Below, in pieces: positions 30,812 through 33,922 of a stretch of 38,010 bases of DNA. Source of the DNA: a virus. The position numbers were made by a program, and so were the translations under genes. The notes beneath the pieces were generated by a model that saw nothing but the letters and a program-made list of their open reading frames with translations, had not been told where the DNA came from and ran no database searches. Position 1 is the stretch's first letter. Each line of letters starts with the position of its first letter. The DNA lies in the IMG/VR virus record IMGVR_UViG_3300025593_000006, positions 1 through 38,010 of that record; one strand, 5' to 3'.

Positions 30812-31468
30812 ATGGAAGCAAAACAAGAGCAACATTTCCCCGTCATAGACTTTCCGAAGGTTAAGTCCCCTTTTGTTAGAGAAACTATTAATGGAAGGTA
30901 TGTTGTTACACCTAAGATTGAGGAAGGGTATGAGTGGGTCTTTGAGGAGCCGGGCGTAAGAGCGGTTGACAAGCTCCACGGGACTAACGTATGTGTACAC
31001 TTCAAAAACGGCATCGTCTCAGCTATTGATAATCGTAAAAATAGAGTGATGCTTAACCCGTTCGTCTCTCTTTACATTCCAAAAAATACTACTCGCATGT
31101 TGGCCGGTATCATCAATTCGATGGAAAAAGGCTGGATACCGGATATAGAGACTGGAAGCATGTACGGAGAGCTTATTGCACCGGAAATCAACGGAAACCT
31201 CCACAAGGTGGATAGACCCTACTTTGTTCCGTTTGAGTGGTTATATCAGAAAGCGCACTGGAAAAGCTGGGTACAAAACAAGTACCCCAAGACTTTTGAC
31301 TCCATTTCGTCTTGGTTCCGTGAGCTTCCGTCTCTATTCACCCAAGACAGAGCTAAACAAGAAGGAATGGCCGAAGGTATTATGTTCACACATCCCGATG
31401 GACGCATGGCGAAACTAAGAAGAGATATGTTTGATTGGTATGAGGTAGTAGGTCACAATGAATTATGA
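30812..31468 (+). CDS. RNA ligase, nucleotidyltransferase superfamily (218 aa)
   Basis: ATP-dependent strand joining through a lysine-AMP intermediate. Motif I is VDKLHGTN (Lys54), followed by the strand VCVHFKNG; motif III-like SMYGELIAPE (118-121), motif IV EGIMF (188-192) and motif V MAKLRR (Lys201) follow in order. The length fits a catalytic core without a large C-terminal domain, close to T4 Rnl2-like RNA ligases rather than DNA ligases. It opens the operon that ends in the tRNA cassette, which suggests tRNA repair or processing. Confidence 0.85.
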   Translation: MEAKQEQHFPVIDFPKVKSPFVRETINGRYVVTPKIEEGYEWVFEEPGVRAVDKLHGTNVCVHFKNGIVSAIDNRKNRVMLNPFVSLYIPKNTTRMLAGIINSMEKGWIPDIETGSMYGELIAPEINGNLHKVDRPYFVPFEWLYQKAHWKSWVQNKYPKTFDSISSWFRELPSLFTQDRAKQEGMAEGIMFTHPDGRMAKLRRDMFDWYEVVGHNEL

Positions 31469-32681: not shown

Positions 32682-32873
32682 ATGTCAGAACAAAAAACAC
32701 AAGTTGATCCAGTACAAGAAGAGATGAAGCGCCGTGAGGAGATGTTACACAATCTTAGCCCTCAAGGTATCATCGAGGCTTTACAAAAGGAGCTGAAACA
32801 TTCAGAGGAAAATAAGAAGTTCTTTGAAGATAAGATCGCTCGTATCAACGAATCGTTATCAAAGTTATCGTAG
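32682..32873 (+). CDS. Small coiled-coil protein (63 aa)
   Basis: Charged throughout with one coiled coil (IIEALQKELKHSEENKKFFE and on). AGGAGAAAC before the ATG is a good site. Last protein gene before the RNA cassette. Confidence 0.62.
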   Translation: MSEQKTQVDPVQEEMKRREEMLHNLSPQGIIEALQKELKHSEENKKFFEDKIARINESLSKLS

Positions 32874-32879
32874 CTTCCA

Positions 32880-32996
32880 AGCCCCTTACCCGGGCTGTTG
32901 CGCTACGTGGGTAGCCGTAGGGTCGAGGTGATGGCTAGTAAGGGAGAAGCCCTAGCAATCGAGAGATTGGTTATACTTACTAGCTCCCTTTTTTAC
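32880..32996 (+). ncRNA. Structured RNA segment R1 with terminator-like end
   Basis: No protein frame. Hairpins: AGCCC/GGGCT (32880-32896), GCTAC-GTGG-GTAGC (32902-32915), CAATC-GAGA-GATTG with a GNRA loop (32956-32969), all before or within a 9-bp stem GCTAGTAAG/CTTACTAGC (32934-32942 with 32976-32984), then TCCCTTTTTT. AAGGGAG (32940-32946) can instead pair with CTCCCTT (32984-32990), a mutually exclusive fold. It may terminate the protein operon or be a free RNA. Confidence 0.5.
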
Positions 32997-32997
32997 C

Positions 32998-33137
32998 GCT
33001 GGATTGGCAGAGTTTGGCCAAATGCGACCGGCAATAGAATAGTTGCTAGAGCTAATTGTGCGGCTTCGGTGAGTCTCGCCCCGGTGTTTCATTGTAGGGG
33101 GATCGGGACTCCGTGGGTTCGAATCCCACATCCGGCT
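32998..33137 (+). tRNA. tRNA-like element 1, Ser-like ends, enlarged middle (140 nt)
   Basis: Acceptor stem GCTGGAT/ATCCGGC pairs over seven bases, the D arm (GCAGAG...ATGC) and T arm (GTGGGTTCGAATCCCAC) are normal and resemble tRNA-Ser. ACCGG (33027-33031) can pair with CCGGT (33081-33085) as an anticodon stem, but 49 bases lie between them, including a hairpin (CAAT...TAGTT/AGCTA...ATTG). A 27-base variable region follows. No standard 7-base anticodon loop is found. Ten T residues follow directly. Confidence 0.5.
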
Positions 33138-33146
33138 TTTTTTTTT

Positions 33147-33206
33147 GCTAGTTCCGGGATAGGATCGCCCGGATAATGACTGATCGCCTTCGTCGCTAGC
33201 TTTTTT
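33147..33206 (+). ncRNA. Structured RNA segment R2 with terminator-like end
   Basis: GCTAG (33147-33151) pairs with CTAGC (33196-33200), followed by TTTTTT; inside is CCGGG/CCCGG. The same GCTAG...CTAGC-T6 plan ends R1. The next tRNA-like element begins at the following base. Confidence 0.45.
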
Positions 33207-33319
33207 CACTGGGTGACCAAGGTAAGGCAACCATGAGCCGAAAGGTGATAAGAGGTATGGTGGCAAGTGTGCGTGTAACCTCGGCCGCTTGTCTGTGAGT
33301 TCGATTCTCACCCCGGTGG
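33207..33319 (+). tRNA. tRNA-like element 2, enlarged middle (113 nt)
   Basis: Acceptor CACTGGG/CCCGGTG (one G-T pair) and T arm GTGAGTTCGATTCTCAC are intact; the D arm has a mismatch. ACCAT (33230-33234) can pair with ATGGT (33257-33261) around 22 bases. GGCAAG...CTTGTC forms a six-pair variable arm with a 20-base loop. No standard anticodon loop is visible, so an amino acid cannot be assigned. Confidence 0.45.
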
Positions 33320-33325
33320 TATTTT

Positions 33326-33426
33326 GCATGTGTAGCTTATTGGTAAAGCGTCTGAAACTGACTTGGTGGTTGCAAACACTGACGAAGGGGATGAGAGTAA
33401 TGTGGGTTCGATTCCCATCGCATGCA
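33326..33426 (+). tRNA. tRNA-like element 3, enlarged middle (101 nt)
   Basis: Acceptor GCATGTG/CGCATGC, D arm GCTTATTGGTAAAGC and T arm GTGGGTTCGATTCCCAT are good. The middle is about 28 bases too long. TTGGTG/CACTGA can form a stem around GTTGCAAA, which contains a Cys-like GCA triplet, but its position relative to the D arm is wrong for a normal cloverleaf. Confidence 0.45.
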
Positions 33427-33428
33427 AT

Positions 33429-33500
33429 GGCCTTGTCGTCTAATGGTTAGGACAACGGGTTTTCAATCCGTGAATCACAGTTCGACTCTGTGCAAGGTCA
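33429..33500 (+). tRNA. tRNA-Glu (UUC)
   Basis: Complete cloverleaf: acceptor GGCCTTG/CAAGGTC, D arm GTCTAATGGTTAGGAC, anticodon arm ACGGG-TTTTCAA-TCCGT with anticodon TTC, T arm CACAGTTCGACTCTGTG. CCA is not encoded. Confidence 0.95.
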
Positions 33501-33516
33501 AGCGTAATAACGACAC

Positions 33517-33547
33517 GATGTCGGGATTTTTGTTTGTCTTCGACATC
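33517..33547 (+). other. Hairpin spacer R4 between tRNA-Glu and tRNA-Asp
   Basis: Perfect 7-bp stem GATGTCG/CGACATC with a T-rich 17-base loop. It may help separate the tRNAs during processing. Confidence 0.45.
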
Positions 33548-33551
33548 ATTT

Positions 33552-33622
33552 GGCTCTATAGTGTAAAGGTAACACGCTGGGTTGTCAGTCCAGAATTGAA
33601 GGGTCGATACCTTCTAGGGCCG
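33552..33622 (+). tRNA. tRNA-Asp (GUC)
   Basis: Acceptor GGCTCTA/TAGGGCC, D arm GTGTAAAGGTAACAC, anticodon arm CTGGG-TTGTCAG-TCCAG with anticodon GTC, T arm GAAGG-GTCGATA-CCTTC. The T loop begins with G instead of T, a slight oddity. CCA is not encoded. Confidence 0.93.
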
Positions 33623-33623
33623 T

Positions 33624-33732
33624 TCTCCCCTCGCTTACGATGCTAGCTCGTTGCTAAGGATCAAACGTGATGTATCTTCGGACTGCGGGAGTGACTAGGT
33701 GGCCTAGGCCGGGGCGGCGATAAAAGGGGAGA
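33624..33732 (+). ncRNA. Structured RNA segment R3 between tRNA-Asp and tRNA-Gly
   Basis: TCTCCCCTCGC (33624-33634) pairs with GCGA (33717-33720) and GGGGAGA (33726-33732), an 11-bp closing stem with a 5-base bulge. Inside are CGTT/AACG and CTAGG-TGG-CCTAG hairpins. No T-loop is present, so it is not a tRNA. No protein frame of note. Confidence 0.45.
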
Positions 33733-33736
33733 TTGT

Positions 33737-33807
33737 GCCACCGTATGTTAATGGTAAACTCTCTGGCTTCCAACCAGATTATGAGCGTTCGATTCGCTCC
33801 GGTGGCT
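33737..33807 (+). tRNA. tRNA-Gly (UCC)
   Basis: Acceptor GCCACCG/CGGTGGC, D arm with AATGGTA loop, anticodon arm TCTGG-CTTCCAA-CCAGA with anticodon TCC, T arm GAGCGTTCGATTCGCTC. CCA is not encoded. Confidence 0.95.
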
Positions 33808-33811
33808 TTAC

Positions 33812-33882
33812 TGCCTTGTGGTGTAATGGTAACACACCTCACTTTGAATGAGGCATTTTTGGTTCGAGTCCAGACGAGGCAA
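33812..33882 (+). tRNA. tRNA-Gln (UUG)
   Basis: Acceptor TGCCTTG/CGAGGCA, D arm GTGTAATGGTAACAC, anticodon arm CCTCA-CTTTGAA-TGAGG with anticodon TTG, T arm TTTGGTTCGAGTCCAGA. CCA is not encoded. Confidence 0.95.
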
Positions 33883-33922
33883 TACATAATCGAAAAAATG
33901 TTTGCACTTAACCCAGAATAGT

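Follow-up and report, generated by a model that had tools for sequence, protein, structure and literature searches.

The window analysed here is the whole 38,010-nt stretch of an IMG/VR virus record with a P22-like portal; a second IMG/VR record (L005) carries the same DNA at 99.99% identity. Within the window, the tRNA array spans approximately 32,870 to 33,890 (Table 1). ARAGORN called four tRNAs in the array and a distant Asn tRNA. The four array tRNAs, which span 33428..33882 on the plus strand and do not encode CCA, are recognized by both ARAGORN and Rfam. Adjoining them are three tRNA-like elements, E1, E2, and E3, none of which was called in the ARAGORN scan of the window. An RNA ligase gene upstream, identified by its PHROG match, is the sole recognized RNA-repair gene near the array and is also present in L003 (74%) and L006. 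An earlier note on this DNA, drawn up from the letters, had placed the three elements next to four normal tRNAs and downstream of an RNA ligase, and both placements agree with these annotations. A protein-coding reading of the E1-E3 region was rejected, as its 125-aa minus-strand and 92-aa plus-strand open reading frames score as non-coding DNA.

Table 1. Positions of the tRNA array, its tRNA-like elements and their parts, and the RNA ligase gene in the window
Feature	Position	Strand	Basis
RNA ligase, KLHGTN motif	30812..31468	+	PHROG 14301, E=1.3e-7
S0, conserved leader RNA	32874..32997	+	kept in L003 and L132 with compensatory changes
E1, tRNA-like RNA, 140 nt	32998..33137	+	scan, fold, L203 homologue
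E1 acceptor, GCTGGAT/ATCCGGC	32998-33004/33130-33136		
E1 D arm, 3-bp stem, 13-nt loop containing GG	33007-33025		
E1 extended anticodon arm, ACCG/CGGU enclosing two inner hairpins	33027-33070		
E1 long variable arm, 12 bp	33071-33111		
E1 single C48	33112		
E1 T arm	33113-33129		
S1, structured spacer E1-E2	33147..33206	+	sequence and fold
E2, tRNA-like RNA, 113 nt	33207..33319	+	scan, fold
E2 acceptor, CACTGGG/CCCGGTG	33207-33213/33312-33318		
E2 ACCAU/AUGGU	33230-33234/33257-33261		
E2 GCC-GAAA-GGU hairpin	33237-33246		
E2 variable arm, 8 bp	33262-33269/33286-33293		
E2 T arm	33295-33311		
E3, tRNA-like RNA, 101 nt	33326..33426	+	Rfam tRNA, 47.7 bits
E3 T arm	33402-33418		
tRNA Glu(UUC)	33428	+	ARAGORN and Rfam
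tRNA Asp(GUC)	33551	+	ARAGORN and Rfam
S3, structured spacer tRNA-Asp to tRNA-Gly	33624..33736	+	sequence and fold; z-score not significant
tRNA Gly(UCC)	33737	+	ARAGORN and Rfam
tRNA Gln(UUG)	33812	+	ARAGORN and Rfam

Further structured RNA surrounds these elements. The leader S0, for which Rfam gave no match, ends in CCC-T6 immediately 5' of E1, and its counterparts at L003:7275-7405(-) and L132:14090-14200(-) end in CCC-T(n). Its motif is GTGATGGnTARTRAGGGAGAA, with a terminator-like U run. The S0 pairings GCTAGTAAG/CTTACTAGC and AAGGGAG/CTCCCTT are crossing or alternative: a 9-bp pairing preserved via compensatory changes crosses a terminator-like pairing. Such a leader would suit a switch or attenuator of the tRNA array. 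An HDV-like fold for S0 was rejected by inspection, since the required P2 pairing is not preserved in L003. The spacer S1 is closed by GCTAG/CTAGC followed by a terminator-like T6, and S3 is closed by an 8-bp stem, UCUCCCCU/AGGGGAGA.

Each of the three elements has 7/7 acceptor pairs (six Watson-Crick and one G-U) and a T arm with 5/5 stem pairs and a TTCRANY loop; their lengths count the base 3' of the acceptor. A scan for a 7-bp acceptor plus T arm at 95-200 nt gave four matches in the window, namely E1, E2, E3, and an alternative 5' end of E3, against 0.027 per dinucleotide-shuffled window. The tRNA-like ends are therefore real rather than chance pairings, which bears out the three elements with 7-bp acceptors and T arms, of 140, 113, and 101 nt, that the earlier note had described. 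Adding a D-arm requirement left three matches (E1, E3, and the E3 alternative) against 0.003 in shuffled sequence, and E1 and E3 have G18G19 D loops. The note's D-arm-like element in each thus stands for E1 and E3 but not for E2, whose D arm is weak and fails the scan's D-arm test. Folding energy alone is not significant for any of the three (z of -0.7 to -1.7). E3 scores above the gathering cutoff of the Rfam tRNA model (RF00005), and E1 and E2 score below it. Rfam matches to tmRNA and YrlA were rejected at 21.8 and 21.6 bits, below their cutoffs of 47 and 69; the YrlA match is attributed to chance because it covers the T arm of E2 plus the D arm of E3.

Between these ends, the anticodon arm of E1 and E2 is replaced by an extended stem with inner hairpins, and one pyrimidine separates a long variable arm from the T stem. 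With the acceptor, D, and T arms enforced, E1 folds to -49.5 kcal/mol with the 4-bp ACCG/CGGU stem and the 12-bp variable arm, compared with -42.6 kcal/mol with a 5-bp ACCGG/CCGGT stem. The pentamer matches pointed out previously (ACCGG...CCGGT with a spacing of 49 nt and ACCAT...ATGGT with one of 22 nt) do exist, and the accompanying caution that one such match is weak was justified, as the pentamer pairing is not in the best fold of E1. In E2, ACCAU/AUGGU encloses the GCC-GAAA-GGU hairpin and a 10-nt 3' bulge, and the cloverleaf containing it (-37.7 kcal/mol) is as good as the minimum free energy (MFE) structure (-38.0 kcal/mol). Because a good D arm is missing, a tRNA tertiary fold is uncertain for E2. 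In E3 the acceptor (GCATGTG/CGCATGC), D arm, T arm, and 5-nt variable loop are all normal. Its anticodon stem pairing is limited to UCU/AGA with a 36-nt loop, position 33 is A, not U, in the sole aligned mature loop (AAGGGGA), and the Rfam tRNA match leaves 40 bases unmodeled. A hammerhead in E3 was rejected by inspection: the core CUGACGA is present, but no GAAA partner is.

We examined relatives supplied by a portal alignment (80 contigs). Most are without such enlarged elements; among the tRNA-bearing contigs, enlarged tRNA-like elements not called by ARAGORN are present in the window group, L003, and L203. The portal relative L203 carries a homologue of E1 at L203:1931-2069(-) with the same D-arm design of a 3-bp stem and 13-nt loop (TGGCAGAGTCTGGCTTAATGC versus TGGCAGAGTTTGGCCAAATGC), and within IMG/VR only the window's record group and L203 show the D-arm pattern of E1 combined with a large gap. 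Between E1 and L203, 3/7 acceptor pairs and 2/5 T-stem pairs are altered on both sides with pairing kept. Without constraints, the MFE structure of the L203 homologue runs from the acceptor and D arm to a GUAGG/CCUAC stem, on which AGUUA-GAAA-UAGCU forms the cap, and then through a long variable arm and a single C to the T arm; the best fold of E1 has the same order with one extra hairpin. The anticodon and variable arms of these two sequences, which make up the whole of this support, were matched by structure and not by sequence alignment, so only the acceptor and T stems are counted as independent covariation. Covariation in relatives, which the earlier note had named as a check, is thus present for the ends of E1, but no homologue of E2 or E3 was found among the relatives examined. 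Searches of plasmids and, by blastn, of phage isolates returned only tRNA-arm matches to the E1-E3 region. The L003 array holds a 122-nt tRNA-like element whose D loop has an insert following the GG and which shows a C33 loop. An RtcB ligase gene, L003:7595-8770(-), separates the RNA ligase from the tRNA array there, and at its position the window has a C5 DNA methylase. Adjoining the E1 homologue is a 65-nt tRNA-Cys-like gene, L203:1787-1851(-), with a nearly absent D arm and an Rfam score of 45.3 bits.

These comparisons bear on whether E1-E3 are degenerating tRNA genes, acquired by the phage and now drifting. The differences in size and insert among the three, the weak D arm of E2, and the scarcity of E1-E3 in relatives would all fit decay. 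The fully intact acceptor and T-stem pairs in all three elements and the compensatory changes between E1 and L203 argue against it, and we consider decay unlikely.

Enlarged tRNAs in other phages allowed E1-E3 to be compared with interrupted tRNAs. We surveyed IMG/VR for an abnormally long spacing between a tRNA D arm and a downstream T loop, which gave at least 120 loci and, among the matches listed, a set of 102 elements with intact ends (104 minus the window's own two). An anticodon arm was taken as usable after one excision if it had a 5-bp stem, a 7-nt loop, U33, and a purine at 37. A perfect interrupted arm was present in 49 of the 102 elements among the matches listed, with 0.9 expected by shuffling, and the recovered anticodons varied. 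Neither directly nor after a single excision was an arm with a 5-bp stem, U33, and R37 found in E1, E2, or E3. Phages thus commonly carry interrupted tRNAs, and single-intron tRNAs of this kind do not include E1-E3. Assignment of E1 and E2 to class II (Ser/Leu/Tyr) was likewise rejected, as no 5-bp anticodon arm with U33 was found with variable regions of 10-36 nt allowed.

The suggestion that E1-E3 are pre-tRNAs with unusual inserts, whose short introns would be cut out and the ends resealed by a phage RNA ligase (RtcB in L003), is disfavored by this result, and intronless alleles were not found. The upstream RNA ligase, the RtcB gene of L003, the many recoverable arms in other phages, and the UCU/AGA pairing and GGG triplet that E3 retains speak for it. 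So do the introns reported in Lak phage tRNAs (PMC6784885), the sole such report that we found among open-licence papers; these tRNAs are enlarged by an insert, as E1-E3 are, but their anticodons were assigned after excision, and E1-E3 give none. Weighing both sides, we regard the intron reading as quite improbable.

The survey inserts (L010-L129) are about 25-55 nt long and interrupt the tRNA at positions such as 28/29, 29/30, and 33/34; L016:9702-9825-, L047:1461-1578+, L082:2558-2681-, and L114 are examples. In L024:3871-4021(+), the insert of an enlarged tRNA itself holds a T-arm and acceptor-like stem, comparable to a nested tRNA reported from Lak phages. A recurrent enlarged tRNA-like family of 98-121 nt (L042, L070, L079, L089, L092, L096, L097, L083, and L122) has a UUCA..UGAA hairpin plus GGACCnAAAnGC within a covarying CCnC/GnGG stem, and its anticodon arm was not recoverable.

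E1-E3 keep the features used by processing enzymes and have lost the feature read by the ribosome, and on this basis we read them as tRNA-bodied RNAs with another job. This was one of three options raised earlier, alongside decoys and pre-tRNAs, and it is the best supported, given the tRNA ends and elbow, the missing decoding loop, and the conservation of E1 in a relative. E1-E3 are thus probably non-decoding tRNA-bodied phage RNAs. Judging from tRNA biology, RNase P, 3' trimming, and CCA addition would act on them by virtue of their ends and elbow; they would build up as stable RNAs alongside the phage tRNAs, and codon reading would be impossible. The stable body might then present the enlarged arms to a protein. 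We lean toward this full account, of stable non-decoding RNAs showing enlarged arms to a protein, a little less firmly than toward its core. A point against a tRNA body is that the base after the E1 acceptor is U, followed by a T10 run 3' of E1 that could be a terminator.

The enlarged arms could serve in two ways. E1-E3 may be carriers for a protein-binding hairpin, or decoys or competitors for enzymes that grip the tRNA elbow and acceptor, such as tRNA nucleases, repair ligases, and tRNA sensors. The decoy reading strikes us as doubtful. With a second such phage group besides T4, it becomes testable whether RNAs of this type draw nucleases or repair enzymes away from host tRNAs. Phage tRNAs resistant to anticodon nucleases (PMC10264068) and the T5/T6 tRNA-Tyr acting against retron/Septu (PMC13096335) have been proposed to counter tRNA-cleaving defenses, but those are functional tRNAs, whereas E1-E3 are incapable of decoding. 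Theta ribozymes at phage tRNA 3' ends (PMC10879173) also add structured RNA to tRNA arrays; unlike them, the 3' ends of E1-E3 showed no HDV-like fold on inspection.

The closest known architecture is that of T4 species 1 RNA (rnaC), a stable tRNA-like RNA of the phage tRNA cluster to which, to our knowledge, no function has been assigned. Like E1, rnaC lies in a phage tRNA array, and at 139 nt it is near E1 in length. It shares with E1 and E2 an acceptor-size closing stem and a long variable-arm-like hairpin before a T-arm-like hairpin, and with all three elements a large central domain and a missing anticodon loop. An A-U to G-C change in relatives keeps its closing stem paired. Unlike in E1-E3, this acceptor-like stem is broken by two U-U mismatches that aligned relatives retain; no tRNA D loop is recognized, in contrast to E1 and E3, and sequence similarity to E1-E3 is nil. 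Because the T loop is replaced in two relatives, rnaC is an analogue, not a homologue. In these relatives, L207 and L208 (Serratia phage LC53 and Enterobacter phage IME523), the T loop TTCGAAT is lost and the stem kept. Most listed records that hold rnaC leave it unannotated. E1-E3 would then represent a second phage group, unrelated to T4, in which non-decoding tRNA bodies are conserved and lie next to RNA-repair ligases. As E3 passes Rfam as a tRNA, phage tRNA counts combine functional tRNAs with interrupted ones and with tRNA mimics.

The survey also yielded a second family, probably a more important result than E1-E3 themselves. In many survey elements the insert includes a hairpin with (U)AACAGCAA, or a closely similar sequence, on its 3' side. 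Among the matches listed, A[CT][AT]GCA[AG] occurs in 29/102 elements (3.8 in shuffled sequence) and the looser motif CNGCA in 52/102 (16.6 shuffled). The motif pattern matched the GTDB genome set at 62 places, almost exclusively in Lachnospiraceae and other Clostridia, with a chance expectation below one by a rough estimate from base composition. A 30-sequence alignment showed strong covariation in the acceptor, T stem, and inserted hairpin, with 97.4% of cells paired and a covariation score of 0.745 versus 0.189 shuffled. We found no paper describing this ACAGCAA family of tRNA-bodied RNAs among open-licence papers.

A gene with the Pfam domains DUF2828 and DUF7788 accompanies the family at 48/62 GTDB loci, on the same strand and mostly just downstream. 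Among phages it is present at 10 of 13 loci with the motif, compared with 7/107 without it and 0/76 portal relatives. The predicted structure of the protein (pLDDT 83.5) best matched Ro60/TROVE proteins, with a Foldseek E value of 2.5e-6 to Ro60 and VIA-align Z values of 13-17, mostly over ~400-420 residues, to TROVE/Ro60 entries, among them Ro60 from Thermus phage phiLo. Nothing convincing came from a profile search of PDB sequences with the protein, and the Ro60 likeness is therefore one of fold only. From these predictions, the ACAGCAA RNAs may possibly be Y RNAs built into tRNA bodies.

Could E1-E3 be Y RNAs as well, tRNA mimics that bind a Ro60/TROVE protein, possibly one encoded by the host? 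YrlA-type bacterial Y RNAs contain tRNA-like domains, as cited in PMC7790460, and other phages and Clostridia have tRNA-bodied RNAs beside Ro60-fold genes; in both, as in E1-E3, a non-tRNA domain is inserted in or attached to a tRNA-like body. In contrast, no TROVE or DUF2828 gene was found in the window and seven related records (partial), and the ACAGCAA hairpin is absent from E1-E3. The ACAGCAA-family model scores E1 at 16.8 and E2 at 14.4 bits, within the 14-23 bits of the ordinary neighbor tRNAs, and E3 reaches 40.5 bits with the inserted hairpin largely deleted. Lacking the gene and the motif, and with E1 and E2 scoring as ordinary tRNAs, E1-E3 are not members of the ACAGCAA/Ro60-fold family, and a Y RNA identity for them appears highly improbable. 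Tentatively, and with more doubt than confidence, phages may employ tRNA bodies as an all-purpose chassis in which the anticodon stem is replaced by protein-binding cargo. If so, E1-E3, read as non-decoding tRNA-bodied RNAs, would be one instance and the ACAGCAA family another, for which the neighboring gene hints at the partner.

Members of the ACAGCAA family are about 105-125 nt long and carry a covarying hairpin plus UAACAGCAA in the 5' half of the anticodon arm; many give an intact anticodon arm once the insert is removed. They occur at the GTDB loci L210-L271, for example L217:6555-6670+, L213:1954-2068+, and L244 (three copies), and at the phage loci L029, L046, L051, L068, L104, and L129.
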